A stretch of DNA of 64,000 bases. Source: Microbacterium horticulturae (GTDB lineage Bacteria > Actinomycetota > Actinomycetes > Actinomycetales > Microbacteriaceae). Made by a program: the position numbers and the translations under genes. Shown piece by piece: positions 7,126 to 35,288 of this stretch. Position 1 is the first letter of the stretch; each line of letters starts with the position of its first letter. The stretch lies in the NCBI RefSeq assembly GCF_029094505.1, contig NZ_CP119108.1, forward strand, positions 2,418,001-2,482,000. Direction: 5' to 3'. The notes beneath the pieces were generated by a model. The model worked only from the letters and a program-made list of their open reading frames with translations, searched no databases and was not told the DNA's origin.

Positions 7126-7145
7126 TGCGCTACGGCGCACGCCCA

Positions 7146-7180: not shown

Positions 7181-7214
7181 CAATCCCCGGCCGGGATACG
7201 TGACAGAATACGGT

Positions 7215-10273: not shown

Positions 10274-10329
10274 GCGCAACGACAGCATCGCCCAGCGGCC
10301 CTGAGCCTGTGGCCCTGCGGTCAACGACG

Positions 10330-10489: not shown

Positions 10490-10551
10490 TTACCAAGCAC
10501 CATCGTCGAGCCGGGACGTCTCGAAAGCCTTCTGAGGAGAAAATCACACGA

Positions 10552-11496: not shown

Positions 11497-11525
11497 CGTC
11501 GTCCAGCGATAGGAGGAGCACTTCT

Positions 11526-12794
11526 GTGAAGATCGCCATCTGTGGCCTCGTCAAGAGCGAGAATCTCGGGGAGATGTTCATTGCCCGAAGCCTCGAGTAC
11601 TTGATCGCCGACGGCCTGGAGCAGGCGCAGCCTGACCTCGACATCGAGTACGTCGAGGTCGATCTACTCGGCCGAAACGACACCATCTTCGAGATCACAG
11701 ATGCGCGCGACAGGCGACTGCGCAACTACTACCAGTACAGCGAGAAGGGCCGGCTCACTGAGAAGCTGTTCCTCAGCCTGCAGCGCAAGGGGCGCACCAC
11801 CAAGAGCAAGTGGGCGCAGAACGCGATCGCCCGGGCACGCCATCTGATCTGGAAGTACGGTCGCAACTACCGCGGGCGGCTCGCCGGCTACTTCGATCTG
11901 AAACTCGATGGCGTCGACTACATCGTGATCGACGGCGCGGGTCTTCTCGAGTACAGCTACAACGAATACCACTGGTCGTTGCTTCTCATCAGCCAGTACG
12001 CCGAACGGCATGGCCTCGAAGTGGTCTACAACGCGATCGGTCGGGCGGGCGCGTTCGACGAGCGCGACTTCGGGAGCAAGGTCCTGAAGCGGGCCATCCG
12101 CTCCTCGGCCGTCCAGTATGTCTCGGCCCGGGACAACGTGGCTGAGGTCCAGGCATGCGCCGGCCCTGAACGCAAGGTCAAGCTCCTCGCCGATTCTGCC
12201 TTCTGGATGAAGGAAGCCTACGAGATCGACACGACCGTCGAACGGAAGAAGATCGGTATCGGACTCATCCGCGGTAACTCGCTTCAGGGCTACGGTGTCG
12301 CCTTCGGCTCGAAGGAATGGACGGCGCTCTTCGCCGGCATCGCCACCGTCCTGCGCGATCGCGGATATGACTTCGAGTTCTTCACCAACGGTCTGCCTGG
12401 TGACATCGCGCTGGGCAAGCGCGTGTTGAAGAAGCTGCAGCTCCCCGACTCCTATCTCGTGGAACGTCCGGTCGACGACACCGTGCTCGTGAACACTATC
12501 AACGGGTACGAGGCGCTCATCACGTGCCGGATGCACTCGTCGATCGCGGCATTCACCATGGGAGTCCCCTCCGTCATCCTGTCGTGGAACGACAAGGTCG
12601 AGAAGCTCATGGATATCATCGGCTACCCTGATCGAGCCATCAAGCGGCACGACTTCCGACCCGAGTTCATCGTTGACAGCATGGAGAAGGCAAAGGAACA
12701 GGGCATCGACGACGCGTTACTATCCGCGATGAAGGACAAGGCGCGCGAGAGCGTCAGCGACTACCTGCCTCTGATCCTCGCTGCACGACCCTGA
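11526..12794 (+). CDS. Polysaccharide pyruvyl transferase family protein (copy 2)
   Basis: 422 residues from a GTG start preceded by TAGGAGGAG, a strong ribosome site that fixes the start; the open frame extends to 11283 inside licD and is not the coding start. It begins MKIAICGLVKSENLGEMF, as usual for this family, contains IDGAGLLEYSYNEYHW in the middle and ends with ITCRMHSSIAAFTMGVPSVI plus a conserved WNDK. The expected reaction is transfer of enolpyruvyl from phosphoenolpyruvate to a surface sugar, though some relatives act differently. It sits 29 bases after licD and 29 before the third cytidylyltransferase. Confidence 0.82.
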   Translation: MKIAICGLVKSENLGEMFIARSLEYLIADGLEQAQPDLDIEYVEVDLLGRNDTIFEITDARDRRLRNYYQYSEKGRLTEKLFLSLQRKGRTTKSKWAQNAIARARHLIWKYGRNYRGRLAGYFDLKLDGVDYIVIDGAGLLEYSYNEYHWSLLLISQYAERHGLEVVYNAIGRAGAFDERDFGSKVLKRAIRSSAVQYVSARDNVAEVQACAGPERKVKLLADSAFWMKEAYEIDTTVERKKIGIGLIRGNSLQGYGVAFGSKEWTALFAGIATVLRDRGYDFEFFTNGLPGDIALGKRVLKKLQLPDSYLVERPVDDTVLVNTINGYEALITCRMHSSIAAFTMGVPSVILSWNDKVEKLMDIIGYPDRAIKRHDFRPEFIVDSMEKAKEQGIDDALLSAMKDKARESVSDYLPLILAARP

Positions 12795-12823
12795 CACTGT
12801 CCTCATTTCCCAGGAGCTCCAAC

Positions 12824-13534
12824 ATGATCACAGCACTGCTGACGGCAGCGGGCACGGGCTCGCGGATGAAGCAAGACATCCCGAAACAGTTCATGCACGT
12901 CAAGAACAAGCCGCTCATCGTCTACACCATGGAGGCCTTCCAGGATCACCCGTCGATCGACGCGATCGTCGTGGTGACGCTTCCGTCGTGGATCGACGTC
13001 GTGACCACGTACGCGAAGCAATACGGCATCACTAAGCTGCGGGCGATCGTGCCGGGCGGCGCAACCGGTCAGGAGTCCATCCACAACGGCTTGGAGAAGA
13101 TCCGAGAAGAAGGCGCCGCCGACGAGGACATCGTCATGATCCACGATGGCAACAGGTGCCTCGTCTCGTCAGAGATCATCTCCGACAACATCGCTGAGTT
13201 TCAGACCAGTGGCAGTGCCGTGGCGGCGATCCCCTGCGTGGAGGCGGTCTTCCGGAGCAACGACAACGGAGTCTCATCAAGGGTGTCCATCCCGCGTGAG
13301 CAATTGTTCCGGACGCAGACGCCGCATTCGTACACCTTGGGCAAGCTCATGTGGGCGCACGATCAGGCGAAGGTTCAGGGCATCGGCGACACCGCGGCAT
13401 CCTGCGTGCTGATGCACGAGCTCGGAGAAACTGTCTACTTCTCAGCAGGCTCGGAACAAAACTTGAAAATCACCACAATGGATGATCTGTACATCTTCGA
13501 GTCCATCCTCGACGCACGAAAAGCTGCGGAGTGA
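12824..13534 (+). CDS. IspD/TarI family cytidylyltransferase (copy 3, divergent motif)
   Basis: 236 residues with LLTAAGTGSRM, IPKQFMHVKNKPLIVYTM, PGGATGQES and NLKITTMDDLY, so clearly a nucleotidyltransferase of the polyol-phosphate group. The usual HD-x2-RP active-site strand reads MIHDGNRCLV, so the conserved proline after the arginine is gone and the pocket differs from the other two copies in this window (HDAVRPFI and HDGVRPLI). It is flanked by a LicD-type transferase and an epimerase and so probably activates a different phospho-alcohol. CAGGAG precedes the ATG by eight bases. Confidence 0.8.
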   Translation: MITALLTAAGTGSRMKQDIPKQFMHVKNKPLIVYTMEAFQDHPSIDAIVVVTLPSWIDVVTTYAKQYGITKLRAIVPGGATGQESIHNGLEKIREEGAADEDIVMIHDGNRCLVSSEIISDNIAEFQTSGSAVAAIPCVEAVFRSNDNGVSSRVSIPREQLFRTQTPHSYTLGKLMWAHDQAKVQGIGDTAASCVLMHELGETVYFSAGSEQNLKITTMDDLYIFESILDARKAAE

Positions 13535-13541
13535 TCCGACG

Positions 13542-14609
13542 ATGACGAGCAGTTCCTATTGGGACGATGTCCACACGGCATACGGCAGCATCCCCGACGC
13601 GAGTGCGCTTCATGGCACCCGTGTTCTCGTGACGGGAGCCACGGGGCTAATCTGTTCGTCGATCGTCGACATCCTTCTGTTCATGAACCGTGAATTCGGC
13701 GCGGACATCACTGTGCTTGTTGCGGGGCGCAATCAGCAGGATGTCATCGATCGATTCCGCAGCTTTTGGGATGAGGGCGATCGCCTCATCTTCGTTCCGT
13801 ACGACGCGACCTCTACTGACCAAGTCACGCTCTCGAGCGACGTCGACTACATCCTCCACGGCGCCAGCAACGCCAACCCGGCGATGTACATGCAGTACCC
13901 CGTGGAGACGATGCTCGCGAATCTCATCGGGCTCTCTACGATGTTCGAGCTGGCTCGTTCGGCATCCGCGCGCAGACTTCTCTACATCTCCTCGAGCGAG
14001 GTCTATGGCCAAAAGGAGGACGCCCACCCATACGGGGAGAACGATTTCGGGTATCTCGATATCTTGAATCACCGCGCGGGCTACCCCTCCTCCAAACGAG
14101 CCGGCGAATCCCTCTGTGTGGCGTACGGCATGGAGTACGGCATCGACGCCGTCATCGTGCGGCCTGGGCACATCTACGGACCTGCGATCCGCAAATCAGA
14201 CAATCGCGTTTCGGCGGAGGCGACTCGTCGGGCGCTTGCGGGTGAAGACGTGATCCTCAAGAGCCGGGGCGAGCAGCTACGTTCGTATTGCTACTCGCTC
14301 GATTGTGCATCCGCAATCCTCACGGTGCTTCTGCGCGGCGAATCGGCGAACGCGTACAACATCTCCAATCCGCACTCGATTTGCACGATCCGTGAGATGG
14401 CCGAAGCTGTGGCGACAGCCGGAGACGTGAGCGTGCAGTACGATATTCCACCCCGCGCAGGTTCCGTCGTCCACAACCTGATGGACAATTCTTCACTCGC
14501 GTCCGACAAGCTTGAGGCCCTCGAATGGATTCCCGCTTTCGACCTTCAGCGCGGGGCGGATCGGATGATGACGGCACTGGGCGAGACTAAGGGGTCGTTC
14601 TCGGTCTGA
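13542..14609 (+). CDS. NAD-dependent epimerase/dehydratase family protein
   Basis: 355-residue extended SDR enzyme acting on nucleotide-linked sugars. The N-terminal cofactor loop reads TGATGLIC (31-38): the third glycine of the usual GxxGxxG is a cysteine, which is unusual. SSSEVYG carries the catalytic Ser and YPSSKRAGE the Tyr-x3-Lys pair. The C-terminal LRSYCYSLDCASAI resembles the substrate-binding part of UDP-glucuronate decarboxylase and GDP-mannose dehydratase relatives. It begins seven bases after the cytidylyltransferase stop, so a CDP-linked substrate made by that enzyme is plausible but inferred. It ends the low-GC locus. Confidence 0.78.
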   Translation: MTSSSYWDDVHTAYGSIPDASALHGTRVLVTGATGLICSSIVDILLFMNREFGADITVLVAGRNQQDVIDRFRSFWDEGDRLIFVPYDATSTDQVTLSSDVDYILHGASNANPAMYMQYPVETMLANLIGLSTMFELARSASARRLLYISSSEVYGQKEDAHPYGENDFGYLDILNHRAGYPSSKRAGESLCVAYGMEYGIDAVIVRPGHIYGPAIRKSDNRVSAEATRRALAGEDVILKSRGEQLRSYCYSLDCASAILTVLLRGESANAYNISNPHSICTIREMAEAVATAGDVSVQYDIPPRAGSVVHNLMDNSSLASDKLEALEWIPAFDLQRGADRMMTALGETKGSFSV

Positions 14610-15401: not shown

Positions 15402-15576
15402 CCCCCTTCCATGGCTGCATCCCGCTGGTGTTCACTGGTGGGGCCCACTGGCCACACCTAGTGATGTGCCGACAGCCTTGGCGGGACCGTCTCGTCGTGG
15501 TCTTGGACGGCGTAACTCTCTTCTACCGGGTGGCGCTCGGAAGCGACTGACATCCGCGGTATGCCACGATAGGTCT

Positions 15577-17444
<1,868 letters not shown>

Positions 17445-17499
17445 TGGTGCCTCCGATCGGCCCGCGAGCGAAGCGCGTCGAAACAGCGGGGGTGCGCGC

Positions 17500-18927
17500 A
17501 TGACGACGGAGTATGGCAAGGCGCTGGCCGCGGCATCCACCGCCATTCCGGGGCTCGTGGTGTGGGAGCTGCCCGTCCACGGTGACAACCGCGGCTGGTT
17601 CAAGGAGAACTGGCAGCGCGAGAAGATGACGGCGGCGGGGCTGCCCGACTTCGGACCCGTACAGAACAACATCTCGTTCAACGACGCGGTGGGCACGACG
17701 CGGGGCATCCACGCCGAGCCGTGGGACAAATGGGTGTCGGTGGCCACCGGGCGCATCTTCGGTGCCTGGGTCGACCTGCGCGAGGGACCGACGTTCGGCG
17801 CGGTGTTCATGTGCGAGATCGACCCGTCGCGGGCGATCTTCGTGCCGCGCGGCGTCGGTAATGCCTATCAGACACTCGAACCCGACACCGCATACAGCTA
17901 CCTCGTGAACGACCACTGGTCGCCCGACGTGCAGTACACGTTCCTCAATCTCGCTGATGAGACCACGGCGATCGCGTGGCCGATTCCGCTGGAGCAGGCA
18001 GAGCTGTCGGCGAAGGATGCCGCGCACCCACGCCTCGCCGACGTGACCCCCGTGCCGCCGCGCAAGACACTCGTCGTCGGCGCGAATGGTCAGCTGGGCC
18101 GCGCGCTGCGGGAGCAGTGGCAGGATGCTGCACACGTCGAATTCGCGGCGCGTGACGACCTCGATCTCACGTCGCCCGATCTGGAAGCGGCCCGACACTG
18201 GCGCGACTACGACACGATCGTCAACGCCGCCGCCTATACGGCCGTCGACGCCGCCGAGACCGCGGAAGGCCGCCGCGATGCGTGGGCGGCGAACGTCACC
18301 GCCGTGGCCGCGCTCGCGCGCATCGCGACCGCGAACGGTCTGACTCTCGTGCACGTCTCGAGCGATTACGTCTTCGACGGCACGAATGATCGCCCGTATA
18401 CCGAAGACGACCCGATCTGCCCGCTCGGCGCGTATGGGCAGACGAAGGCCGCGGGCGATGCGATCGTCGCGACGGTTCCGCGCCACTACGTGGTGCGCAC
18501 CTCGTGGGTGATCGGCGAGGGCAAGAACTTCGTGCGCACGATGGCTTCTCTTGCCGAGCGCGGCATCGACCCGAACGTGGTCGATGACCAGACCGGGCGC
18601 CTGACCTTCACCGGTGAGCTGGCCCGCGGCATCCATCATCTCGTGAGCACATCCGCGCCGTATGGCGTGTACAACCTGACGGGCGCCGGTGCCCCGACGA
18701 CGTGGGCGGATGTCGCGCAGCGCGTGTTCGCGTTGACGGGCAACGACCCGGCTCGGGTCACCGGGGTGTCGACCGCGGACTACTTCGCGTCGGGGACCGC
18801 CCCTGTCGCGCCTCGCCCAGCGAACAGCATGCTCGATCTGCGGAAGATCACCGCCACGGGGTTCGCTCCCACCGACGCGGACGACGCTCTGGGCGCGTAC
18901 CTGGGACGACCACGCCTCAGCGTTTGA
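17500..18927 (+). CDS. Fused dTDP-4-dehydrorhamnose 3,5-epimerase / reductase (RmlC-RmlD)
   Basis: 475 residues joining the last two steps of dTDP-L-rhamnose synthesis. Residues 1-185 are a cupin epimerase (RGIHAEPWDKW with catalytic-type His71, then GAWVDLREG, VPRGVGNAYQTLE). Residues 187-475 are an RmlD reductase (VVGANGQLGRAL cofactor loop, SSDYVFDG, YGQTKAAGD with Tyr-x3-Lys). Similar fusions are familiar in Microbacteriaceae; most bacteria keep two genes. It follows rmlB after 55 bases, completing the pathway in three genes. It meets the sulfotransferase gene tail to tail with 11 bases of overlap, so there is no room for a terminator. Confidence 0.92.
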   Translation: MTTEYGKALAAASTAIPGLVVWELPVHGDNRGWFKENWQREKMTAAGLPDFGPVQNNISFNDAVGTTRGIHAEPWDKWVSVATGRIFGAWVDLREGPTFGAVFMCEIDPSRAIFVPRGVGNAYQTLEPDTAYSYLVNDHWSPDVQYTFLNLADETTAIAWPIPLEQAELSAKDAAHPRLADVTPVPPRKTLVVGANGQLGRALREQWQDAAHVEFAARDDLDLTSPDLEAARHWRDYDTIVNAAAYTAVDAAETAEGRRDAWAANVTAVAALARIATANGLTLVHVSSDYVFDGTNDRPYTEDDPICPLGAYGQTKAAGDAIVATVPRHYVVRTSWVIGEGKNFVRTMASLAERGIDPNVVDDQTGRLTFTGELARGIHHLVSTSAPYGVYNLTGAGAPTTWADVAQRVFALTGNDPARVTGVSTADYFASGTAPVAPRPANSMLDLRKITATGFAPTDADDALGAYLGRPRLSV

Positions 18928-19660
18928 TTTTCGACGCCACCGAGCGGGCCTTGCGCTTCAGGCGCTTCAGCGTGCTTGGGCCGCCCACGTTGCCATCCGC
19001 GAACGGCACGGTCGCCTGCACCGGTGCCTGCCGGGGCGTGTAGCCGAAGCGCGTGAAGTCGTCGCGATAAAAGTCGCACACGAACTCCGTAAGCTCGTCT
19101 GGCATCTCAACCTCGGAGCTAGAGAAGCCTGCTTCCTTCTTGGAATTGAGCGCGCGGCCGCCCGCGGTCACACCGATCTCGAAGCGACGGTTCAGATCCG
19201 ACAGCATCTCGTCGATCCCGTCTTCCAGGCGATATACCCGAGCCGCGGGCATCCAGAACTCGTGTTGCGGGCGCAGGTGGTTGTCAAGCACGTAGGGATT
19301 CGATTCGTACGCCCGGAACTGCTTCCGCGCCCACGCGGACACGACGTCGCCCCGGCGCGACACCGTCTTCTCTTTGCGGTGCTTGTACACATATTCCGAG
19401 CGGAAACGAGCTACCGGATCGCGCACGACCATGAAGACCAGGTCGAACCGGTCGAGGCGAAAGATCTCTTCGAGCTGCGCCGCATGCATGTGCTGCGGGG
19501 AGCACGTGCGGAGGTGGTTCATGCTCTTCTGACCGAGTTTGCGATCGAGGTATTCGGTGACATAGCCGCTGTCTCGGAATGCATTCTCGATGCTCGTCCC
19601 CCCGCACTTGGGGACGTGGATGAAGAGGATGTTCTTACCGTTCTTACGGAATACCGGCAT
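18917..19660 (-). CDS. Sulfotransferase family protein
   Basis: 247 residues of the Sulfotransfer_2 type, which moves sulfate from PAPS to a carbohydrate or other acceptor. The 5'-phosphosulfate loop is ILFIHVPKCGGTSIE at residues 11-25, and the 3'-phosphate motif is VVRDPVARFRSEY. No membrane anchor or signal peptide is seen, so it should act in the cytoplasm on a lipid- or nucleotide-linked precursor. CAGGAG stands five bases before the ATG. It is divergent from a second sulfotransferase gene and near a complete PAPS supply set (21090-26462), which strongly supports the role. Acceptor unknown. Confidence 0.82.
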   Translation of the reverse strand: MPVFRKNGKNILFIHVPKCGGTSIENAFRDSGYVTEYLDRKLGQKSMNHLRTCSPQHMHAAQLEEIFRLDRFDLVFMVVRDPVARFRSEYVYKHRKEKTVSRRGDVVSAWARKQFRAYESNPYVLDNHLRPQHEFWMPAARVYRLEDGIDEMLSDLNRRFEIGVTAGGRALNSKKEAGFSSSEVEMPDELTEFVCDFYRDDFTRFGYTPRQAPVQATVPFADGNVGGPSTLKRLKRKARSVASKIKR

Positions 19661-19820
19661 GGTTCTCCTGAGATACGTCGACGCGGGTCGCGAGACTGGC
19701 GCAAGCAGACAGTTGCGGCAACGGAAGATGCCCGCGAAGCGGTCCGCCCGTGCACCTGCTCGACGATAGACCCGTCATCTATGTGGCTTCATGGTAGCGG
19801 CGATGAGGAGCGTCGGAAGG

Positions 19821-21080
19821 ATGTCTGCTGGCGGAACTCTCAAGTACCTCATTGAGTCGCCGGTTATGGTGCCGCACATGGCGAACCCGAACGTCTTGTC
19901 CCCGATCGTCCCGTACTCCAGCGACACACGTCTCCTGCACATCGGCCCGCACAAGACAGGTACGACGAGCATTCAAGCGGCCCTCCACAGCGCCCGCGCG
20001 GAGATGTCGCGACAAGGCGTGCACATGGCCGGTCGCAACCGGCATCCGATGGCTGCGGTGCTCGCCGGGGTGGGCCGCCCCGCACCGAACTCGAAGGCCA
20101 AAGAGGCACCGTCGCGTGCGAAATGGGCGGCACTGCTGCGCGATATCCGCAGCGCGCGCGAGCCGCGTGTCGTGCTCAGCAGCGAGTTCTTCGCCGATGC
20201 CCGGCCCGAAGCCATCCGCCATGTCGTCGACGAGCTCGACCCGTCGCGCGTACAGATCGCGGTCACGCTCCGACCGCTTGCGAAGGTCATCCCGTCGCAA
20301 TGGCAGCAGTACGTGCAGGCCGGCCTACGCACCGACATGGTGCGCTGGCTCGAGGGCATCTTCGGTGAGCATCCCGAAAAGACCACGCCGTCCTTCTGGT
20401 ACCGACACCGCCACGACCATCTCATCGAACGCTGGGCGGCTGTCGCGGGCGCCGAGAACCTCACCGCGATCGTCGTCGACGACCGAGATCACGACGGCGT
20501 GCTGCGGATATTCGAGCGGCTGCTCGGCCTCAGCGACGGACTGTTGGTCGCTGACCGCGATCTGAGCAACCGGTCAATGACGCTGCCCGAGATCGAGGTC
20601 GTTCGTGCTTTCAACCAGCAGTATGCGAAGACGCAACTCGGCCGCGCCGTCCATGCCAAAGCGATGAGGTTCGGCGCTGCGCTCAACATGAAACAACGAA
20701 CTCCGAGCCCTGAGGAGGAGCGGGTCGCGGCACCGCAATGGGCGATGGACCGCGCGGGCACGATCGCGCGAGAGATGGTGGCGAACATCCGCTCCTCAGG
20801 GGTGCGCGTCATCGGCGATCTCGACCTGCTGACGACGGTGCCGACGGGGTGGGAGGAGGGCGACCGGCCACCCGTGCAGGTCACCCCTGAGATCGCGGGG
20901 AAAGCCGTGATGGGCGTGCTCGAGTCTCTCCTGGCCGACGCGGCATCGACCGACGGCAAGGTACCCACGAGCCGCGATGCACTGCTGGAGGCGATCCCCG
21001 CGCGCGAGCTCGCCGAGGCGCTCGTCGACCGCGTCACCACGAAGGTCGGCACCGCGCTGCGGCGCAGGCCCTCGAAGTGA
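19821..21080 (+). CDS. Sulfotransferase-like protein (P-loop PAPS-binding type)
   Basis: About 420 residues. The PAPS-binding loop RLLHIGPHKTGTTSIQAAL lies near the N-terminus, with VVLSSEFFADA and a 3'-phosphate-like segment VTLRPLAKVIPSQWQQYVQAG. The C-terminal third has no motif I know. The start is uncertain: the frame opens at 19791; ATG 19821 has GAGGAG ten bases upstream and is used here; ATGs at 19866 and 19878 would bring the motif closer to the N-terminus, as is usual. It differs from the divergent neighbour in length and type, so two acceptors or positions may be sulfated. It ends nine bases from the convergent cysC gene. Confidence 0.75.
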   Translation: MSAGGTLKYLIESPVMVPHMANPNVLSPIVPYSSDTRLLHIGPHKTGTTSIQAALHSARAEMSRQGVHMAGRNRHPMAAVLAGVGRPAPNSKAKEAPSRAKWAALLRDIRSAREPRVVLSSEFFADARPEAIRHVVDELDPSRVQIAVTLRPLAKVIPSQWQQYVQAGLRTDMVRWLEGIFGEHPEKTTPSFWYRHRHDHLIERWAAVAGAENLTAIVVDDRDHDGVLRIFERLLGLSDGLLVADRDLSNRSMTLPEIEVVRAFNQQYAKTQLGRAVHAKAMRFGAALNMKQRTPSPEEERVAAPQWAMDRAGTIAREMVANIRSSGVRVIGDLDLLTTVPTGWEEGDRPPVQVTPEIAGKAVMGVLESLLADAASTDGKVPTSRDALLEAIPARELAEALVDRVTTKVGTALRRRPSK

Positions 21081-21089
21081 GCCCGGCGC

Positions 21090-22328
21090 TCATTCGATTC
21101 TCTCGACGAGCGCGGCCCGCACCTGGCCCACCGCGTCGTCGAGATCGATGACGGACGTGTCGATGACCACGTCGGCGTCATCGGGCGCCTCGTACGGCGA
21201 CGAGATACCCGTGAAATCGGGGATCTCACCCGCACGCGCCTTCGCATACAGCCCCTTTCGGTCACGCGCCTCGCAGACATCGAGAGGCGTGCTGACGTAG
21301 ACGAGAAGGAACGCCGCGCCGGCTTCGGCCGCCAGTTCGCGCACCCGCTGCCGCGCGGCGGCGAACGGTGCGATGGGCGCGGCGATGGCGATGCCCCCGT
21401 GGTGAGCGACCAGAGAGGCCACGTATCCGATGCGCTCGACGTTCGCCTCGCGCGAGGCGCGGTCGAACCCGAGCCCCCGCGAGAGAAACTGGCGCACCTC
21501 GTCGCCGTCGAGCTGCGTCGTGCGCATCCCATCGTCTTCGAGCTCGGCTCTCAACGCCGAGGCCACGGTTGATTTTCCCGAGCCCGAGAGTCCGGTGAAC
21601 AGCACGACGACTCCGCGGCGCCCGACGCCCGCCAGGGCGCGCTCAATGTCCGGCGCCTGCGCCGGCATGTACAGCTGATTGACGGCGTCGCGTCGCACCG
21701 TCGCCAGAGCATCGATGCGTCGCTGCTCGTCAGTCGGCCGGTCGTCGGACACAGCGCGTACCGTCGCCGCTCCGCACCCGCGTACGACCTCAGCAAACGC
21801 AAGGGCTCCCACGGAGAGCGTTTCGCCTGATTTCTCCTTCGGCCATGGCAGCACAACGGCACGAGCAAAGTGCCCGGCGTCGCGCAGCGTCGCCGCGAGC
21901 TCTTGAGCGGCACGGGCCAGTCCCGCGGCGCCCACCTGCCCGGCAGCGACCGTACCCCGTGCCGCCGGTGCAACCACGACGATCTGCCCACGATGGCCGG
22001 CGAACGCCGCGAGCGCGCGATCGATGTCGCCGCGGGTGGGCGGCTCGGCGAGGGTCAGGGCCGCGGCATCCGTCAGCTCCGTACGCAACTGCGCGGGAGC
22101 GATGCGCACCATCGGGTCCCACTGCGGCCCGGGAGTGTGTGCGAACGGTTTGAGCGCCGTGACGAGGCCGCCGTCGACGCGTGCCAGCGGTGCGTTCTCG
22201 GCATCCGTGAGCACCGTGCCATTCGGCACCTCGCCACGGGCCGGATTCGGAATGCCCCCGCCCAGCGCCAGCTCGAGGATGTCGAGTTCGGAATCGGTGA
22301 GGACACGCACGGGGCGCTGCAGAGTCAT
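21090..22328 (-). CDS. cysC: Adenylylsulfate (APS) kinase with N-terminal ATP-sulfurylase-like domain
   Basis: 412 residues. The C-terminal 180 residues are a canonical APS kinase that phosphorylates APS to PAPS: P-loop GLSGSGKST at 246-254, [26 protein letters not shown], and [16 protein letters not shown]. The N-terminal 230 residues resemble the PUA-like and catalytic domains of ATP sulfurylase (start [19 protein letters not shown]), but no clear catalytic ATP-binding histidine motif is visible, and separate CysD/CysN are encoded nearby, so the domain may be regulatory or degenerate. The start is fixed by GGAAGGA and by ATGA overlap with the permease gene. PAPS would serve the two adjacent sulfotransferases. 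Confidence 0.88.
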
Positions 22329-23311
22329 CGGGTTCCTTCCGGAGGCGAGTGATGCTGTGCGTCGGGGCAAGGAGGCGGGACGTTCCCCGACGGTTTGGCG
22401 CGGGCACGGCGCTGTTCGTGCTTGATCGCGGTGTAACGGTTGCGGATGAGGACCCACAGCAGCGGCCCCAGGATGAGAGCAGCGATCGTCACTCCGAACA
22501 CCCATTCGGTCGGCACGCCGGTGAGCTTGAGACCCGACGCCAGCAGCAGGATCGCGAGAACGCGGCGGATGATGCCCCCGGGCGCCCGGCTGGAGACACG
22601 GGCACCGAAGAAGGCCCCGGGAATCGCGCCGATCAGTAACGAGACCGTCAGCCCCAGCGAGAAGTCTCCGTAGAGGAGGTGACCGAGGGATGCCGCGGCC
22701 ACCAGCGGCACCGCCTGGACCAGATCGGTGCCCACGAGCTGCGATGCCTTGAGCCCCGGGTACATGAGCAGCAGGACGACGATGATGATGGATCCTGCGC
22801 CGACCGAGGTCATGCCCACGAGCAGTCCCGCCACTGCACCGAGGAGCACGGTGGGCACCGGCTTGACGACGACATCGGGGCGCGTCGGTTTCGCCGCGCC
22901 CTCGCCCAGTGCAGTGTTGCGCTGGAGCATGCCCAGCACGGCACGCACCACGAGACCTGCCGAGGCCAGAAGCAATGCAACACCCAAGATGATCTTGAGA
23001 ATCTCGTTAAGGGATTCGCCGAATGGCAGCACCCGTAACAGGATGACGCCCGAGAAGGCAGCGGGCACCGACCCGACGCACAGCCACAGGACGAGCTTGA
23101 GGTTCACGGTCCTGCGCCGGAGGTGTACGTAGGCTCCGGCCGGCTTCATGAACAGGCTTGCGACGACGTCAGAAGAGACCGCCATCAGCGGATCCACGCG
23201 GAAGAAGAAGATGAGCATGGGGGTCATCAGAGCTCCCCCGCCCATTCCGGTGAGGCCCACGACGAACCCGACGAGCAGGCCGCCGAGAACGAGACTGAGG
23301 TCGATGCTCAT
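22325..23311 (-). CDS. TauE/SafE family anion permease (probable sulfate/sulfite transporter)
   Basis: About 328 residues with eight or nine membrane helices. TauE/SafE permeases carry sulfite, sulfoacetate, sulfate or similar anions. Family marks are [16 protein letters not shown] near the N-terminus and its half-repeat [16 protein letters not shown] in the middle, followed by [14 protein letters not shown]. The frame is open to 23377 but the family start fits ATG near 23311 with GAGGAG upstream. It is translationally coupled to cysC, so import of the sulfate that CysDN and CysC activate is the natural inference. A charged proline-rich tail closes the protein. Confidence 0.83.
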
Positions 23312-23455
23312 CGCTGTACGGGCTGCTCCTCGTGTGTGACGAACGAGGTCGTGCCACAGGCTGGGAACATGCCGCAATGGTAGCCTCGGGCTGGTTTCGC
23401 GGACGGGCGTCTGTCATCTACGCGAAACAATCTCCAGCAAGTCGATAGGAATACA

Positions 23456-24295
23456 GTGACGACTCCCTCCGCCACGACGGACGACCACGCGTTCGCCGCC
23501 GAGTTGGCGCTCGGTGCGGGTGCGGTGCTGCTCGCGCTGCGTGCGGACGTCGACGAGACGGGGGATGCCGTCGACACGGCCGCTCTCAGAGACCTCGGCG
23601 ATGCACGGGCGCAGGACTGGCTCGCCGGCGCCCTCGCCGCCGGCCGTCCGGACGACGCCGTCCTCTCGGAGGAGGCCGCTGACGACCACGCACGCCTCGA
23701 TGCCGAACGCGTATGGATCATCGACCCGCTCGACGGCACCCGTGAGTTCGCGGAGCGCACCGGCGGCACCTGGCGGACCGACTTCGCCGTGCATGTCGCC
23801 CTCTGGGAGCGCGGTCTCGGCCTCACCGCCGGCGCCGTCGCACTGCCCGCTCGTGCACAGGTATATCGAACGCCCCCGACCGCGGCGGCACCCGATGAAG
23901 TGGCTGTCGCCGCCGTGCTGACCGGCGACCGCGCGCTGAGAATCGCCGCTAGTCGCAGCCGGCCGCCCGCGTTCGTCACGGCTCTGGCCGAACGCGACGA
24001 CGTAGAGCTTGTGCCGATGGGCTCGGCGGGCGTCAAGGTGATGTCGGTGGTCGACGGCACAGTTGACGCCTACCTGCACGCCGGCGGGCAGTACGAATGG
24101 GATTCGGCGGCGCCTGTGACCGTCGCCGCGGCCGCCGGCTTCGTCTGCACCCGCCTCGACGGCTCGCCGCTCGTCTACAACCGCGCGAACCCCTGGCTGC
24201 CCGACCTTTTCGTCAGCCACCCCGCCTTGCAGGCCCACGTGCGCAGCCTGCTCGCCACCGTCGTCACTCCCGATCAGGAAGGTACCCAGTCGTGA
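23456..24295 (+). CDS. cysQ: 3'(2'),5'-bisphosphate nucleotidase (PAP phosphatase)
   Basis: 279-residue member of the inositol monophosphatase superfamily. CysQ removes the 3'-phosphate from PAP, the inhibitory by-product of sulfotransferases, and can also destroy PAPS. The metal-binding motif IDPLDGTREF is complete, with an upstream EEA acid and the C-terminal WDSAAPVTVAAAAGF motif. A GTG start with TAGGAATACA just upstream fits a short ribosome site. The stop overlaps the cysD start (GTGA), tying PAP removal to sulfate activation. Confidence 0.88.
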   Translation: MTTPSATTDDHAFAAELALGAGAVLLALRADVDETGDAVDTAALRDLGDARAQDWLAGALAAGRPDDAVLSEEAADDHARLDAERVWIIDPLDGTREFAERTGGTWRTDFAVHVALWERGLGLTAGAVALPARAQVYRTPPTAAAPDEVAVAAVLTGDRALRIAASRSRPPAFVTALAERDDVELVPMGSAGVKVMSVVDGTVDAYLHAGGQYEWDSAAPVTVAAAAGFVCTRLDGSPLVYNRANPWLPDLFVSHPALQAHVRSLLATVVTPDQEGTQS

Positions 24296-25194
24296 ACACC
24301 CACGTCTTGAGTCAGCTCCGCAGTCTGGAGGCTGAGAGCATCCACGTCTTCCGCGAGGTCGTCGCGGAGATGCAGCATCCCTGCCTCCTTTTCTCGGGCG
24401 GCAAAGACTCGATCACCATGTTGCACCTGGCCGAGAAGGCCTTCACGCCCGCGCGCATCCCCTTCCCGATCATGCACGTCGACACGGGGTTGAACTTTCC
24501 CGAGGTGATCGCTTGCCGTGACCGCTGGGTCGAGCGCACGGGCGTGCAGCTCGTCGTGGCCTCCGTGCAGGATGCCATCGACCGCGGCCTGGTCACCGAG
24601 CCGCCGAACGGGTCGCGCAACCGCATCCAGACCCCCGTGCTGCTCGAGGCGGCCGAGAAGAACGGCTTCGACGCGCTGTTCGGCGGTGGCCGCCGCGATG
24701 AGGAGAAGGCGCGCGCCAAGGAGCGCGTCTTCTCGTTCCGTGACGAGTTCGGTCAGTGGGACCCGAAGAACCAGCGTCCCGAGATCTGGAGCCTGTACAA
24801 CGGCCGCGTGCATCCCGGCGAGAGCATCCGGGTCTTCCCCCTCTCGAACTGGACCGAGCTCGACATCTGGTCGTACATCGCCGAGGAAGACATCGACATC
24901 CCCGAGCTGTACTTGGCCGCCGAGCGCGACGTCGTCGAGCGCGACGGGATGCTGTTCGCCGTGAACGACTTCATCTCTCTCAAGGACGGCGAGCAGCTGC
25001 AGCGGCGGTCGGTGCGCTACCGCACGCTCGGCGACGCCAATCTGACCGCCGCCGTCGAGTCGACGGCATCCACCTTCCCGGCCATCGTCGAAGAGATCGC
25101 CTCGGTCCGCATCACCGAGCGTGGTGCGACGCGCGGGGACGACAAGGTCAGCGAGGCAGCGATGGAAGACCGCAAGCGAGAGGGCTACTTCTGA
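24292..25194 (+). CDS. cysD: Sulfate adenylyltransferase subunit 2 (ATP sulfurylase small subunit)
   Basis: 300 residues. CysD carries the PP-loop ATP pyrophosphatase active site (LLFSGGKDSITMLHL) that makes APS from ATP and sulfate, driven by GTP hydrolysis in CysN. Other CysD blocks are the FGGGRRDEEKARAKERVFSF motif and RPEIWSLYNGR; the C-terminus ends in the typical MEDRKREGYF. GTG start within the cysQ stop (GTGA). The cysN ATG shares one base with its stop (TGATG). The frame upstream of 24292 lies inside cysQ and is not used. Confidence 0.95.
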   Translation: MNTHVLSQLRSLEAESIHVFREVVAEMQHPCLLFSGGKDSITMLHLAEKAFTPARIPFPIMHVDTGLNFPEVIACRDRWVERTGVQLVVASVQDAIDRGLVTEPPNGSRNRIQTPVLLEAAEKNGFDALFGGGRRDEEKARAKERVFSFRDEFGQWDPKNQRPEIWSLYNGRVHPGESIRVFPLSNWTELDIWSYIAEEDIDIPELYLAAERDVVERDGMLFAVNDFISLKDGEQLQRRSVRYRTLGDANLTAAVESTASTFPAIVEEIASVRITERGATRGDDKVSEAAMEDRKREGYF

Positions 25195-26462
25195 TGGCAA
25201 CCGACCTGTTGCGGTTCGCGACCGCAGGCTCCGTCGACGACGGCAAAAGCACGCTCATCGGGCGGCTGCTGTTCGACTCGAAGACGATCTTCAGCGACCA
25301 GCTCGAATCGGTCGAGCGGGTGTCACAGAGCCGGGGCAACGACTACACCGACCTCGCACTGCTCACCGATGGCCTGCGTGCCGAGCGCGAGCAGGGCATC
25401 ACGATCGACGTGGCATACCGCTATTTCGCGACGCCGCGGCGCAAGTTCATCATCGCCGACACCCCGGGACACATCCAATACACCCGGAACATGGTCACCG
25501 GCGCCTCGACCGCCGATGTCGCGCTCATCCTCGTCGACGCGCGTAAGGGTGTGGTCGAGCAGAGCCGGCGACACATGTTCTTGGCCACACTGCTGGGAGT
25601 GCCGCACATCGTGGTGTGCGTGAACAAGATGGATCTCGTCGGCTATCACGAGGACGTCTTCGAAAAGATCCGTAGCGAGTTCACCGACTTCGCCTCGCGG
25701 CTGCGCGTGCGCGACCTGTCGTTCATCCCGATCTCCGCGCTGAACGGCGACAATGTCGTCGATCGCAGCGAGAACATGCCGTGGTTCGATGGCTCGCCGC
25801 TGCTCAGCCACCTGGAGCGGCTGCACGTGGCCAGCGACCGCAACCTCACGGACGTACGCTTCCCCGTGCAGTACGTGATCCGGCCGCAGCAGCATGAGCA
25901 CCGTGACTATCGCGGGTATGCCGGGACGGTCGCGAGCGGCGTCATGCGTCCCGGTGACCCGGTGGTCGCGCTGCCATCGGGGCTGGAGACTACGATCGCC
26001 GGAATCGACACCGCCGACGGGCCGGTCGCCGAGGCCTACCCGCCCATGTCGGTCACGGTGCGACTCACAGACGACATCGACATCTCGCGCGGCGATATGC
26101 TCGCTCGTCCGAACAACACCCCGGCGTCGCTGCAGGACATCGACGCTCAGGTGTGCTGGATGGACGAGACCGCGACCCTGATGCCGGGCAAGAAGTACGC
26201 GATCAAGCACACGACCCGCTGGGCGCGTGCCATGGTGAAGAACCTCAACTACCGCATCGACGTCAATACCCTGCACCGGGACGAGGCCGCCACCGAGCTC
26301 GGTCTCAACGAGATCGGGCGCGTGCGTCTGCGCGTGACGCAGCCGCTGTTCGTCGACCCGTACCAGCAGAACCGCGAGACCGGCTCGTTCATCCTGGTCG
26401 ACGAGAGCACGAACAAGACCGTGGCTGCCGGCATGATCGGGAGCCTCCCGCACACTGCATGA
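25194..26462 (+). CDS. cysN: Sulfate adenylyltransferase subunit 1 (GTPase subunit)
   Basis: 422 residues, an EF-Tu-like GTPase that energises APS formation by CysD. GTPase motifs are TAGSVDDGKSTLIGRLL (G1), IADTPGHIQY (G3) and CVNKMDL (G4), followed by two beta-barrel domains. There is no C-terminal APS kinase extension (CysC is separate here). No adenylylsulfate reductase or sulfite reductase gene follows; the next gene on the opposite strand is a pyruvyltransferase. This supports PAPS use for sulfation rather than for cysteine synthesis. Confidence 0.95.
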   Translation: MATDLLRFATAGSVDDGKSTLIGRLLFDSKTIFSDQLESVERVSQSRGNDYTDLALLTDGLRAEREQGITIDVAYRYFATPRRKFIIADTPGHIQYTRNMVTGASTADVALILVDARKGVVEQSRRHMFLATLLGVPHIVVCVNKMDLVGYHEDVFEKIRSEFTDFASRLRVRDLSFIPISALNGDNVVDRSENMPWFDGSPLLSHLERLHVASDRNLTDVRFPVQYVIRPQQHEHRDYRGYAGTVASGVMRPGDPVVALPSGLETTIAGIDTADGPVAEAYPPMSVTVRLTDDIDISRGDMLARPNNTPASLQDIDAQVCWMDETATLMPGKKYAIKHTTRWARAMVKNLNYRIDVNTLHRDEAATELGLNEIGRVRLRVTQPLFVDPYQQNRETGSFILVDESTNKTVAAGMIGSLPHTA

Positions 26463-26502: not shown

Positions 26503-28116
26503 TCAACCCTGCAGAATTCGACGGCCGAGCCGTCGCACGTGTGTACGAGCCGTCGCGAGACGGCCCACAGGTGTTTGCGTCGGCGCAGCGACGACTCCCC
26601 CGCCCGCAACACGGCGGTCGAGCTCAGCCGTCAGCGCAGCGATCTGCGCTTCCTCGCCCCGTTTGCCTGCGACCACAGCCCGGAGCTGACGGCGCACCTC
26701 GGGTTCTTGCTGCCGCCCGGGCCGATACCCGAGGGGTGAGAACGATGGCCGGACCGTGCGCTCAGCGGCGATCCCCGCCGCTGTCGTCCGGTGCCGCAGC
26801 CAACGGACACGATCAGCGATATCGGTTTCGTATCGGGGACTGGCCGGCACAAGCGGGCGAACGGGCTCACGGAACGGCGCCGCCGCAACCTGCTCTTCAT
26901 AGGCGGGGTTGGCGCTGCCGTCCTGCCCGATGTGTGTGAGACCGTTGACGTCGAAGAATCTCATGAGGGTCTCGAACCGCGGTTTGAGTCCGCGGTTGTA
27001 GGCGGACCAATCGGACTCCGCGAACAAAGACTCGACGGTGGCCTTCCGACCTGCCGTAGCCAACTTGTGCCGAGGGATCTCGTGGTACTCGGCGAGCTCA
27101 AGCGTCCGGGAGTCAAATGGCAGAATCGTCGCCGGCGTCCGCGACAGGAGTGCGGCGATCGTTCCATGGATGCGTGTCCCAACCGCGTAGTCGAACTCGG
27201 AAAGACTGTCGACCCACGTACGGGAATCGAGCGGGAATCGCATCCTTCCTTCTCGATACAGCACGTGCCTGGTGTGCGTTGGCAGGACGGGATCATACTT
27301 TCCGGGAAGATCCTCGCCCCACAACATGAGCGCGAGATCGGTGTGATTCTGTGGAAAGTAGACCGCATTGCGATAGGTATCGAGCGTGCGTCGCACGAAC
27401 GGAACGACCTGTTTCGCATACGGAGAGATACTCATTGCGATACCACTGTCCGGGGTGGGCGCGTCGCCCACCACGACGGTGTTCTCTGGGCCGCGCAGAT
27501 ACACCGCCGGGCAACCGATGACTTCGACGTGCTCATCCCCGAATCCCAGTCTCCGCAGGAACAGCCGCGTCTGGTCGCCGCGCACACCGATCTTCGCAGA
27601 GTGGTCCAGTACGGCCCGCGCGAACCTCGTGACGACGACTTCGATGTCATCGCTGAGTATCGTGTCTCGCTCAATACCGAATTGGGCGCCCACGCCGACC
27701 ACAGTCACGGGGATCGTGAGACCCTCGATGACCTCGGTCAGCCGGCGCAGCGGGTCAAGGAACCGGCGGCGGAATGCGTTCGCAAGCGGGATCACGAAGT
27801 GGTCGAACTCCCGATCGATCCGGGCGATGTGACGGCGAGTGCTGTACTTCTCCGTGACGTACGAGTCAGCCACGACGTCATTGTCGGGTGTGGACAGCAA
27901 GCGATGCACGGAGTCCGCGAACAGGAGATTCCCGACGTTGCTGCCGAACACGCCACTGTGGCCATAGGCGAGTGCCGCTTCGGCACTGATGGCCGTGCGG
28001 GGGTCTTTTGCAGCACGCAGCAGATAGCGGGTCAAAGACATCCTCGTAATCGTTCCAGGAATCGGGGTCGTCCAATTGTCCCGCACGTCGTCGCCTGGAG
28101 AAAACTCCGAAGCCAT
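26503..28116 (-). CDS. Polysaccharide pyruvyl transferase family protein (copy 3, long C-terminal tail)
   Basis: 537 residues, longer than copies 1 and 2. Residues about 45-340 hold the family fold: GHSGVFGSNVGNLLFADS, VVGVGAQFG, YFPQNHTDLAL and VGTRIHGTIAALLS. About 170 further residues follow, with a predicted coiled coil rich in Arg, Glu and Ala near the end, possibly for oligomerisation. GAGGA nine bases upstream supports ATG 28116 (an internal ATG at 28041 is the alternative). Base composition is more AT-rich than the adjacent cys genes, suggesting the same foreign source as the 1-14.6 kb locus. It is convergent with cysN. Confidence 0.78.
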   Translation of the reverse strand: MASEFSPGDDVRDNWTTPIPGTITRMSLTRYLLRAAKDPRTAISAEAALAYGHSGVFGSNVGNLLFADSVHRLLSTPDNDVVADSYVTEKYSTRRHIARIDREFDHFVIPLANAFRRRFLDPLRRLTEVIEGLTIPVTVVGVGAQFGIERDTILSDDIEVVVTRFARAVLDHSAKIGVRGDQTRLFLRRLGFGDEHVEVIGCPAVYLRGPENTVVVGDAPTPDSGIAMSISPYAKQVVPFVRRTLDTYRNAVYFPQNHTDLALMLWGEDLPGKYDPVLPTHTRHVLYREGRMRFPLDSRTWVDSLSEFDYAVGTRIHGTIAALLSRTPATILPFDSRTLELAEYHEIPRHKLATAGRKATVESLFAESDWSAYNRGLKPRFETLMRFFDVNGLTHIGQDGSANPAYEEQVAAAPFREPVRPLVPASPRYETDIADRVRWLRHRTTAAGIAAERTVRPSFSPLGYRPGRQQEPEVRRQLRAVVAGKRGEEAQIAALTAELDRRVAGGGVVAAPTQTPVGRLATARTHVRRLGRRILQG

Positions 28117-30110: not shown

Positions 30111-30938
30111 TCACTTCTTCTTCGGCTTCTTCTCCACGGGCGGCCGCTTACGGTCGTCGGGTTTGGTCTCGTCCAGAACCTTCAGTGCATCGAGGATCGG
30201 ACCGTCGAAGGCGACCTCACCCTTGCGGATGACAATGCCGCGCGTACACAGCTCCTTCACCTGACCGGCGCTGTGGCTGACGATCATCATCGTGATGCCG
30301 GTGGCCGCCAGTTCTTTGAGCTTCGCGTTGCACTTCGCTCGGAACGGGGCATCACCGACCGCGAGCACCTCGTCGACCAGCAGCACGTCGAGCTCGACGT
30401 GGATGGCGACGCTGAAGGCCAGGCGCATGAACATACCCGACGAGTAGTTCTTCACCTCTTGGTCGATGAAGTCGCCGATCTCGCTGAACGCGACGATCTC
30501 GTCGAAGCGCTCCTTCGTCTCCTTCTCGGTCATACCCAGGATGGCCGCGTTGAGGAAGACGTTCTCACGACCGGTGAGCTCGGGATGGAACCCGGCGCCC
30601 ACTTCGATGAGGCCCGCCACCCGGCCCCGAGTGAGCACCTCACCCCGATCAGGGCGTAGGACGCCCGAGACCAATTTGAGCGTCGTGGACTTTCCCGACC
30701 CGTTCAGCCCCATGACCGCGACGCACTCGCCTTGGCCGATTGAAAACGAGACATCGTTCAGCGCCTGAAAGCGCTGATTGCTCGCCTCGCGCCGCTTGAC
30801 GAGATCGATGAACGCGCCCTTCAGGGAGCGCGTCGAGCGCTTGCGGAACCACTTGGAGACGTGGTCAACGATGATCGCCGGGTCGGCGGTGCGGGTCCGC
30901 ACCGCCCTGGTTGTGGCGCGAGTGGGAGTATCGGTCAT
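30111..30938 (-). CDS. ABC transporter ATP-binding protein for polysaccharide/teichoic acid export (Wzt/TagH)
   Basis: 275 residues. It powers export of lipid-linked wall polymers together with the permease gene that precedes it. Walker A is GLNGSGKST, the signature region YSSGMFMRLAFSV, Walker B VLLVDEVLAVGD, and the His switch IVSHSA, all typical of the Wzt/TagH/RfbB family. The C-terminus is a short Lys-rich tail (KKPKKK), so the carbohydrate-binding extension of O-antigen-type Wzt proteins is absent, as in TagH-like exporters that do not sense a chain cap. ATG 30938 shares one base with the permease stop (TGATG) and has AGGA upstream. Confidence 0.9.
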   Translation of the reverse strand: MTDTPTRATTRAVRTRTADPAIIVDHVSKWFRKRSTRSLKGAFIDLVKRREASNQRFQALNDVSFSIGQGECVAVMGLNGSGKSTTLKLVSGVLRPDRGEVLTRGRVAGLIEVGAGFHPELTGRENVFLNAAILGMTEKETKERFDEIVAFSEIGDFIDQEVKNYSSGMFMRLAFSVAIHVELDVLLVDEVLAVGDAPFRAKCNAKLKELAATGITMMIVSHSAGQVKELCTRGIVIRKGEVAFDGPILDALKVLDETKPDDRKRPPVEKKPKKK

Positions 30939-31810
30939 CACAGATCCTGAGCGAACGTGCGCGAGAAGCGACTGAAGACGAGCTGGCCGATGACCACCAT
31001 CACAAGGCTGATGCCGACCGCGGCCAACACATGCCAACCGAACCCGGGCGGCCAGCCGATGGTGTCGTTCGGCACGACCTGCGACCAGTACGCCTCATGG
31101 AACATCTGCACCGCGACGGTGACGGGGTTGCTCATGTAGATGTCGAAGACCCACATGTGGTGAGGAACCCGTTCATACAGCATCGGCCATGTGTACATGA
31201 TCGGTGATGACCACGTCGCGACCGTGCGGATGATCTCGAGGAAGTTCTGCGCATCGCGATAGCGGACGTTGATCGCGGAGAGGAAGAGGCCCACGCCGAA
31301 CACGAAAGTGAGGACCATCGCAAGTCCGCCCAGCGTCAGGCCGATCGCCGCCGGCGTAGGGCGCCAGCCGAACAGCACCGAAGCGATCAGCAGCACGATG
31401 TACTGCGGCAGGAAGTGGATGAACGAGCCGACGAGCGACGCGATGGGAAACAGCTCGCGCGGCAGGTAGATCTTGCGCACGAGCGCCTTGTTCTCAAGGA
31501 TCGACCGCGTGGTGGCCGACATGCTCTCGTTGAACAGGTGTACGACGCACAGTCCGGCGAACAGGTAGATGGGGAACATCTCGACCCGGCGAGTCAGCCC
31601 AAGAATGCCGCCGACGACGAGGAAATAGACCAGGAACTGCACGGTCGGGCGCACATACGACCACAGCCACCCGAGGGCGGAGTTCTTGTACCGCAGCGAC
31701 GTGCTCTTGCCGATCAGCAGACGTAGCAGATAGCGATAGCGGAAGACATCGAACAGGCCACGGCCTGCGCCGGGCGTGTCATAGGCGGTCTTATCGAGTG
31801 TCATTGTCAC
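30938..31810 (-). CDS. ABC transporter permease for polysaccharide/teichoic acid export (Wzm/TagG)
   Basis: 290 residues, ABC-2 type, with about six membrane helices. It forms the membrane channel for the ATPase encoded next. Typical Wzm/TagG features are LLIGKSTSLRYKNSALGWLWSYVRP near the start (shown here in part), SATTRSILENKALVRKIYLP and the NVRYRDAQNF loop. GTG 31810 is preferred because GAGGAC lies nine bases upstream; ATG 31804 is the alternative and longer starts are unlikely. Together with the LCP gene at 35289 it supplies the export and attachment steps for the polymer loci at 1-28 kb. Confidence 0.9.
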   Translation of the reverse strand: MTMTLDKTAYDTPGAGRGLFDVFRYRYLLRLLIGKSTSLRYKNSALGWLWSYVRPTVQFLVYFLVVGGILGLTRRVEMFPIYLFAGLCVVHLFNESMSATTRSILENKALVRKIYLPRELFPIASLVGSFIHFLPQYIVLLIASVLFGWRPTPAAIGLTLGGLAMVLTFVFGVGLFLSAINVRYRDAQNFLEIIRTVATWSSPIMYTWPMLYERVPHHMWVFDIYMSNPVTVAVQMFHEAYWSQVVPNDTIGWPPGFGWHVLAAVGISLVMVVIGQLVFSRFSRTFAQDL

Positions 31811-31934
31811 GGGTATGTCGTCCTCGCGCCCGCGTTCATCCGGATTCGGGCCACCCGTCATCCTACTGGAACGCCGGCTGAGAACCGTCTGCAACGGTCC
31901 GTGGCGGCACCTGCGGCATCCCGACCCGCGACGA

Positions 31935-35287: not shown

Positions 35288-35288
35288 G

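Follow-up and report, generated by a model that had tools for sequence, protein, structure and literature searches.

Among the closest described systems to the locus treated here, all cited from excerpts of their sources, the capsular polysaccharide cluster of Cobetia marina KMM 1449 makes a polymer that is reported to be sulfated (PMC11766843), Mycobacterium tuberculosis passes adenosine 5′-phosphosulfate (APS) either to CysH or, via CysC, to 3′-phosphoadenosine 5′-phosphosulfate (PAPS) and sulfotransferases (PMC4373884), and the wps-1 cluster of Actinoplanes missouriensis, with two sulfotransferases, has a sulfated polysaccharide as its predicted product (PMC13390465). We analyzed a stretch of 64,000 nucleotides of the Microbacterium horticulturae genome (contig NZ_CP119108.1, positions 2,418,001 to 2,482,000; the whole stretch is called the window below), in which two sulfotransferase genes (SulT1 and SulT2) stand with genes for the APS kinase CysC, a TauE/SafE-type permease (TauE), a CysQ-like phosphatase and the two ATP sulfurylase subunits CysD and CysN (together CysDN). 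A preliminary description of the window had listed these seven sulfation genes, and all were recovered at the same positions by Pfam or NCBIfam models and, for SulT2, by its predicted fold. On balance, we favor a reading in which this cassette decorates a wall polymer with sulfate while its CysDN also feeds APS to the cysteine pathway.

Because the steps of this reading are drawn from protein family membership, they are worded here as predictions. TauE would import sulfate, CysDN would turn it into APS, and CysC would turn APS into PAPS. SulT1 and SulT2 would move sulfate to hydroxyls of a rhamnose/polyol-phosphate polymer or its precursor, ahead of export by an ABC transporter and attachment by a LytR-CpsA-Psr (LCP) ligase, and the CysQ-like phosphatase would remove 3′-phosphoadenosine 5′-phosphate (PAP). 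APS would be the branch point, with a distant CysH of the APS reductase type drawing on the same pool for cysteine.

Sulfotransferases and their probable acceptor

An APS kinase was found in 13 of 247 genomes of the same genus and in 29 of 299 genomes of the family Microbacteriaceae, together 40 different genomes. In the 299 family genomes, for which the APS kinase and sulfotransferase scans are taken as drawing the same set, Sulfotransfer_3 matched 11 genomes, Sulfotransfer_1 8, Sulfotransfer_2 5, and the SulT2 profile 14. The union of these four profiles was present in 24 of the 29 genomes with CysC and in none of the 270 without it (Fisher p 7e-31, on counts that ignore the relatedness of the genomes). 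Since loci around CysC contributed 4 of the 53 rows of the SulT2 profile, with at most six candidates scored per genome, the count for the three Pfam profiles alone matters as well (15/29 versus 0/270, p 1e-17). Because of this co-occurrence, akin to the one that the preliminary description had proposed to check across the family, we regard it as almost certain that the PAPS is made for sulfotransfer. Of the five genomes with CysC and no sulfotransferase match, G211 and G309 carry motif candidates near cysC, and G292, G297, and G370 were read on short contigs only.

A PF01507 search covering the 40 family genomes with CysC and three genomes of other families detected no CysH in 27 of the 40 (eight of the 27 are <90% complete), so a cassette of this type works without sulfate reduction. 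Two forms were distinguished. Form A, as in the window, has a separate CysC of ~400 aa, CysD, CysN, and usually TauE and a CysQ-like gene. Form B, with CysD and a CysN-CysC fusion (seen in 14/14 form B loci fetched), occurs in 16 family genomes (14 of 1.2–2.0 Mb and two of 2.5–2.6 Mb), none with CysH; in the small form B genomes (L028–L041), sulfate activation apparently serves sulfation only.

A SulT1-family scan of named genomes gave 79 loci, from the best 80 of 273 stretches. Among the matches listed, CysC, CysD, CysN, and a gene of SulT1 type stand no more than about 10 kb apart in 11 actinobacterial loci, seven from Isoptericola and one each from Krasilnikoviella, Arthrobacter castelli, Segeticoccus, and Demequina flava; TauE was not found in one of them (L082), nor CysQ in another (L072). 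A homologue of the window CDP-glycerol-type polymerase, here GlyP, lies within about 10 kb of 8 of these 11 cassettes versus none of 24 form A cassettes without SulT1 (p 7e-6; L014, which duplicates L082, and L015, whose contig has CysC only, were left out of the 24, and L027 is only 3.7 kb long), and near 0/10 reductive clusters and 17/68 other SulT1 loci. PF04464 matched all seven GlyP homologues scanned; six of these belong to cassette loci and the seventh to Nocardioides. In Arthrobacter castelli (L069), rmlA, rmlB, rmlCD, the cassette, and SulT1 stand together as in the window, and in G494 (L054), rmlA, rmlB, and rmlCD homologues beside the cassette are 83, 82, and 73% identical to those of the window. 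Four Nocardioides/Pimelobacter loci combine SulT1-type and SulT2-type genes with a GlyP homologue, and in three of these a TarIJ homologue is present too.

From the locus itself and from this recurrence near teichoic-type polymerases, the wall polymer is probably the sulfate acceptor. The earlier proposal of a dedicated pathway sulfating a rhamnose/polyol-phosphate wall polymer therefore survives in part: the use of PAPS for sulfotransfer is carried by the co-occurrence, the acceptor is plausible, and the word "dedicated" has to be dropped, as set out in the next section.

The strongest alternative, which we judge unlikely, keeps PAPS for sulfotransfer and places the sulfate on another acceptor (a lipid, a protein, an exported small molecule, or a separate exopolysaccharide), the position in the locus being incidental. 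This would fit the several families of sulfotransferases that accompany the cassette in relatives, the lack of a GlyP homologue at all 24 SulT1-free cassettes, and the cassettes that lie beside housekeeping genes. It fits less well with SulT1-type genes near teichoic-type polymerases, at the frequencies given above for cassettes and for other SulT1 loci, with the four Nocardioides/Pimelobacter loci, and with a SulT2 model that resembles glycan sulfotransferases.

ATP sulfurylase supply and the reductive cluster

The genome (3,645,982 bases, a single contig, 100% complete by the assessment figure) encodes two PF01507 proteins, the window CysD and a CysH ~0.8 Mb away (G000:C1:3230166). The latter lies in a cluster (L003) read from translations, and with NCBIfam for Sir and CysH, as CbiX-Sir-CysH-CobA/SUMT-Fpr, without CysDN. 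Hence, while the preliminary description was right that the window has no CysH (CysD is the only PF01507 match there), the genome search that it proposed brought up a sir-cysH cluster elsewhere. A few kb upstream of this sulfite reductase cluster, the translations of L003:626-2733 (G000:C1, near 3.22 Mb) include a cytidylyltransferase/HAD fusion and a NeuB-like synthase, which suggests a nonulosonic-acid locus.

No Sat-type sulfurylase was found in the genome, the window CysDN being the only ATP sulfurylase found, and by score only the window CysC is an APS kinase among four PF01583 matches (2.4e-58; the others 4e-4 or weaker). With one CysD, no Sat, and a reductive cluster that lacks CysDN, a dedicated sulfation pathway is not supported; instead, the window CysDN is very likely common to sulfotransfer and reduction.

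The distant CysH contains the cysteine pairs CC and CxxC (LCCAMR and GCAPC), as does the CysH of 9/9 other clusters, and we take these pairs to be the mark of APS reductases. It scored 212.6 bits against the APS reductase model TIGR02055, below the cut-off of 235.3, but lower still against the PAPS reductase model (175.8 bits, cut-off 254.2); the cut-off of TIGR00434 was passed (199.3 bits, cut-off 165.1). Because of these cysteine pairs, sulfate reduction, as judged from sequence, likely depends on the window CysDN but not on CysC. The preliminary description had named, as evidence that would count against it, a reductive pathway needing the PAPS of this cluster; what was found is a pathway whose dependence is likely on APS.

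The same question can be followed in relatives. A PF01507 match was obtained in 24 of 59 same-genus genomes, of which 19 were read as CysC-free (13 shown individually; G060, G061, G071, G072, G075, and G081 inferred from their absence among the listed positives), four carry CysC, and G013 gave one weak match. CysH adjoins CysD in 19/19 of the CysC-free genomes, and the order is sir-cysH-cysD-cysN in all seven reductive clusters with CysDN (L044–L050), so reduction there does without CysC; together with the cysteine pairs, this disfavors a requirement of CysH for PAPS. CysH was found in 13 family genomes with CysC: in ten of these (nine in the genus, plus G258) the sole CysD is near CysC and a lone CysH lies elsewhere, G059 and G109 have a second CysD beside CysH, and G544, with a partial CysD at contig ends, could be assigned to neither group. 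CysD and CysH are split in 3/4 same-genus genomes with CysC versus 0/19 without it (Fisher p 0.0023). CysDN was missing from 7/7 such reductive clusters read, namely that of M. horticulturae and those of G026, G066, G258, G538, and G457, which make up six of the ten, and that of G042 from another family.

That the window CysDN would nevertheless serve sulfotransfer only, with the CysH-Sir cluster idle or on another sulfur source, is improbable, since an open sir-cysH-cobA-fpr cluster persists in this genome, where the search brought up no second ATP sulfurylase, although CysH was not found in 27 of the 40 family genomes with CysC and G059 and G109 keep a second CysD beside CysH. An ordinary assimilatory cluster adjoining two sulfotransferase genes by chance can be dismissed almost outright: the permease and both CysDN subunits are commonly part of sulfate assimilation, CysDN feeds reduction in the favored reading too, and in six same-genus genomes with CysC no sulfotransferase was found near the cassette, but APS kinase is confined to 13 of 247 same-genus genomes, cysH-cysD members of the genus manage without it, the reductive CysDN of seven loci form a separate clade, and the co-occurrence of CysC with sulfotransferases led us to reject a chance neighborhood.

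Several points nonetheless weigh against sulfate decoration of a wall polymer with a shared CysDN, including the limits attached above to the co-occurrence counts, to the CysH search, and to the TIGR02055 score. By motif or homology, in the neighborhood only, no sulfotransferase was found within about 10 kb of the cassette in 6 of the 13 same-genus genomes with CysC (G026, G457, G494, G516, G544, and G547), and in G066 the nearest SulT2-type matches lie 12 and 25 kb away. The best NCBIfam match of the CysQ-like phosphatase, TIGR01331 (CysQ), reached 100.2 bits, below the equivalog cut-off of 228.8, and the protein is therefore named CysQ-like only. Eight of the 11 SulT1 cassettes come from Promicromonosporaceae and so represent few independent events. 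Finally, the cassette lies among housekeeping genes in several relatives, and with no GlyP homologue near any SulT1-free cassette, the link to polymer genes is not general.

Enzymes, origin, and layout of the cassette

SulT1 matched Sulfotransfer_2 (PF03567) at 50.7 bits (cut-off 22), and its residues P17, K18, G21, R80, and S88 are invariant across 35 aligned sequences; presumably, the first three form the 5′-phosphosulfate loop and R80 and S88 are the Arg and Ser of the 3′-phosphate site. SulT2 matched no Pfam family over cut-off and, at 18.5 bits versus a cut-off of 22.8 for Sulfotransfer_4, is not filed in that family. By structure comparison, its predicted structure has a sulfotransferase fold with heparan-sulfate (glycan) sulfotransferases as nearest matches; its other Foldseek matches (ATP synthase, CTP synthase, and other P-loop proteins) were set aside as general fold matches. 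Searched by sequence against solved structures, the SulT1 and SulT2 profiles gave no match at E up to 0.01, and only the fold comparison was informative. Both proteins are predicted PAPS-dependent sulfotransferases. With at least 1432 relatives, SulT2 adds a large family with sulfotransferase fold; the window member itself scores below every curated Pfam cut-off.

Near the cassettes, 28 sulfotransferase candidates were collected, with Sulfotransfer_3 matching 9, Sulfotransfer_1 7, Sulfotransfer_2 3, and Sulfotransfer_4 1 (E up to 0.01; one protein may count twice), and several match no Pfam family. A conserved sulfotransferase (KRGGTTSLYYD) lies directly downstream of cysN in L019, L020, L021, L025, L026, and L055, and the gene that recurs after it in these six loci has an APH-type kinase domain in the L021 copy, the one member scanned. 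Several of the loci L028–L041, from genomes of 1.2–2.6 Mb, have GPxKTGTT-type candidates near the CysN-CysC fusion. The SulT2-type gene beside the cassette of L022 (G178:C1:223544-224716) has an in-frame stop, and the same genome carries a second, stop-free copy (G178:C1:1445225-1446406).

CysD and CysN passed their NCBIfam models (TIGR02039, 434.6 bits, cut-off 396.6; TIGR02034, 581.5 bits, cut-off 336.1), as did CysC (TIGR00455, 195.7 bits, cut-off 138.7; PF01583, 194.6 bits), and the CysQ-like phosphatase matched Inositol_P (PF00459) over cut-off at 105.2 bits. A profile of 23 form A CysC proteins aligned along almost the full length with both two-domain APS kinases and the fungal ATP sulfurylase, reaching 312.9 bits over 10–387 for the APS kinase 3cr8, compared with 221.9 for the best kinase-only chain. 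The predicted CysC structure (predicted local distance difference test, pLDDT, 85.4; predicted template modeling score, pTM, 0.49) aligns over about residues 3–412 to 1m8p, 1i2d, 2gks, and 3cr8 with a root mean square deviation of 11–12 (1m8p: 4–412, 11.6), which indicates that the domain orientation differs from that of these structures. HxxH and QxRN, which we take to be sulfurylase active-site motifs, are both absent from residues 1–235 of the window CysC; HxxH occurs somewhere ahead of the P-loop in 3 of the 23 form A members, and no Pfam sulfurylase model is among the 25 families listed for them. From the profile and model alignments and the loss of HxxH, CysC is read as an APS kinase with a predicted relic ATP sulfurylase domain, inactive by motif loss. 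A role of this domain in sensing or docking is a guess.

In a tree of joined CysD and CysN (55 loci, 704 columns), the window CysDN groups with the Isoptericola/Krasilnikoviella (Promicromonosporaceae) cassettes, separately from the rest of the family members included (100%), and the reductive CysDN of the seven loci make up a clade by themselves. Window CysD and CysN are 83–87% identical to the Isoptericola/Krasilnikoviella cassettes versus 68–74% to same-genus cassettes. The grouping with cassettes of another family suggests that the cassette is likely of horizontal origin, as far as sequence comparison can tell. For Sir and CysH, the identities are 68 and 59% to the copies of G042, from another family, versus 79 and 63% to those of same-genus G457.

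The window is a teichoic-acid-like wall-polymer locus, as the preliminary description had it: Pfam found PF04464 twice, a PF00005/PF01061 exporter, and a PF03816 LCP ligase, all in the first 45 kb of the window, the part annotated (Table 1). The rhamnose genes and the pyruvyltransferase named there as flanks were also recovered, RmlCD on the left and the pyruvyltransferase on the right by Pfam, and RmlA and RmlB by translation. The cassette comprises two divergent units, TauE-CysC leftward and CysQ-CysD-CysN rightward, with SulT1 and SulT2 each oriented separately. The coupling by overlaps that had been described within both units is seen in the sequence, at 4 nt for the permease stop and cysC start (ATGA), 4 nt for the cysQ stop and cysD start (GTGA), and 1 nt for the cysD stop and cysN start (TGATG); the 3′ end of SulT1 overlaps rmlCD convergently by 11 nt. 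The window also holds three separate polysaccharide pyruvyltransferases, at 2067-3464(+), 11283-12794(+), and 26503-28116(-), and, between exporter and LCP ligase, a 695-aa protein with three bacterial SH3 stretches at 31935-34022(-).

Table 1 Sulfation cassette and wall-polymer genes of the window (window positions).
Feature	Position	Strand	Evidence
SulT1, Sulfotransfer_2 family sulfotransferase, 247 aa	18917..19660	-	PF03567
SulT2, sulfotransferase-like, 429 aa, true start uncertain	19791..21080	+	Predicted fold; no Pfam match over cut-off
CysC, APS kinase with N-terminal relic ATP-sulfurylase-like domain (predicted), 412 aa	21090..22328	-	PF01583, TIGR00455
TauE/SafE-type permease, predicted sulfate importer	22325..23311	-	PF01925, 150.8 bits
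CysQ-like phosphatase, predicted PAP removal	23456..24295	+	PF00459
CysD, ATP sulfurylase small subunit, GTG start	24292..25194	+	TIGR02039
CysN, ATP sulfurylase GTPase subunit	25194..26462	+	TIGR02034
rmlA, rmlB, rmlC-rmlD fusion, predicted dTDP-rhamnose supply (rmlA start approximate)	15571..18927	+	RmlCD by Pfam; RmlA, RmlB from translations
Polysaccharide pyruvyltransferase	26503..28116	-	PF04230, 60.6 bits
Polyol-phosphate genes: IspD/SDR fusion (TarIJ-like), pyruvyltransferase, two CDP-glycerol-type glycerophosphotransferases	797..6405	+	Pfam
AT3-SGNH acyltransferase, LicD, second pyruvyltransferase, epimerase	7125..14609	+	Pfam
ABC-2 exporter ATPase and membrane subunits, TagGH-like by position, Pfam generic	30111..31894	-	PF00005, PF01061
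Glycosyltransferase and LCP ligase, predicted wall-polymer attachment	34169..36743	-	PF13692/PF00534, PF03816

Comparison with known systems

A wider picture, possible but tentative, is that of actinobacterial sulfated wall teichoic acids, in which a mobile cassette (CysC with its relic sulfurylase domain, permease, CysQ-like phosphatase, CysDN, and SulT1) would have spread from family to family and entered teichoic-type loci, where sulfate would be one more anionic group beside phosphate and pyruvate, and would have replaced the native ATP sulfurylase in several lineages, so that cysteine synthesis there would depend on wall decoration. Neither a sulfated teichoic acid nor a sulfated Microbacteriaceae wall polymer was found among the papers listed and the excerpts obtained from the open-licence PMC literature, which is no proof of absence. 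Within the reach of our searches, four things are new: the placement of the cassette in a locus of teichoic type, its family-wide tie to sulfotransferases, its likely passage from one family to another, and the way it has taken over as the only ATP sulfurylase. If the picture is true, sulfate would join phosphate and pyruvate as a charge carrier of Gram-positive wall polymers, with a bearing on cation binding, phage receptors, and interbacterial recognition; the cassette would give a genetic handle on sulfated wall polymers in named actinobacteria (Isoptericola, Krasilnikoviella, Arthrobacter castelli, and Demequina flava) and would be an evolutionary case of a decoration cassette taking over a core metabolic step.

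The systems compared here are again known to us from excerpts. Like the wps-1 cluster, the window is an actinobacterial glycan locus with two sulfotransferases of different families, one of those in wps-1 being of heparan-sulfate type; wps-1 differs in being a Wzx/Wzy exopolysaccharide cluster, and cysC, cysN, and PAPS do not appear in the text that describes it (PMC13390465). The window CysC resembles the APS kinases of Thiobacillus denitrificans (3cr8) and Entamoeba histolytica in having an inactive N-terminal ATP-sulfurylase-like domain, but this domain is shorter (~235 residues versus 293 in EhAPSK), and it is found beside a CysDN-type sulfurylase (PMC13213808). Cobetia marina KMM 1449 likewise has a single glycan cluster that unites a rhamnose operon, ABC export, cysD, the cysC and cysN functions, cysQ, a sulfate permease, and sulfotransferases; it differs in its Gram-negative capsule, its kps export, and its fused CysN-CysC, and no dependence of sulfate reduction on it is mentioned in the excerpts (PMC11766843). 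Finally, M. tuberculosis offers the parallel of an actinobacterial CysDN that serves both an APS reductase and an APS kinase with sulfotransferases; there, CysC is fused to CysN and the products named are sulfolipids, whereas in the window CysC is separate, with a predicted relic ATP sulfurylase domain, and stands in a wall-polymer locus (PMC4373884).

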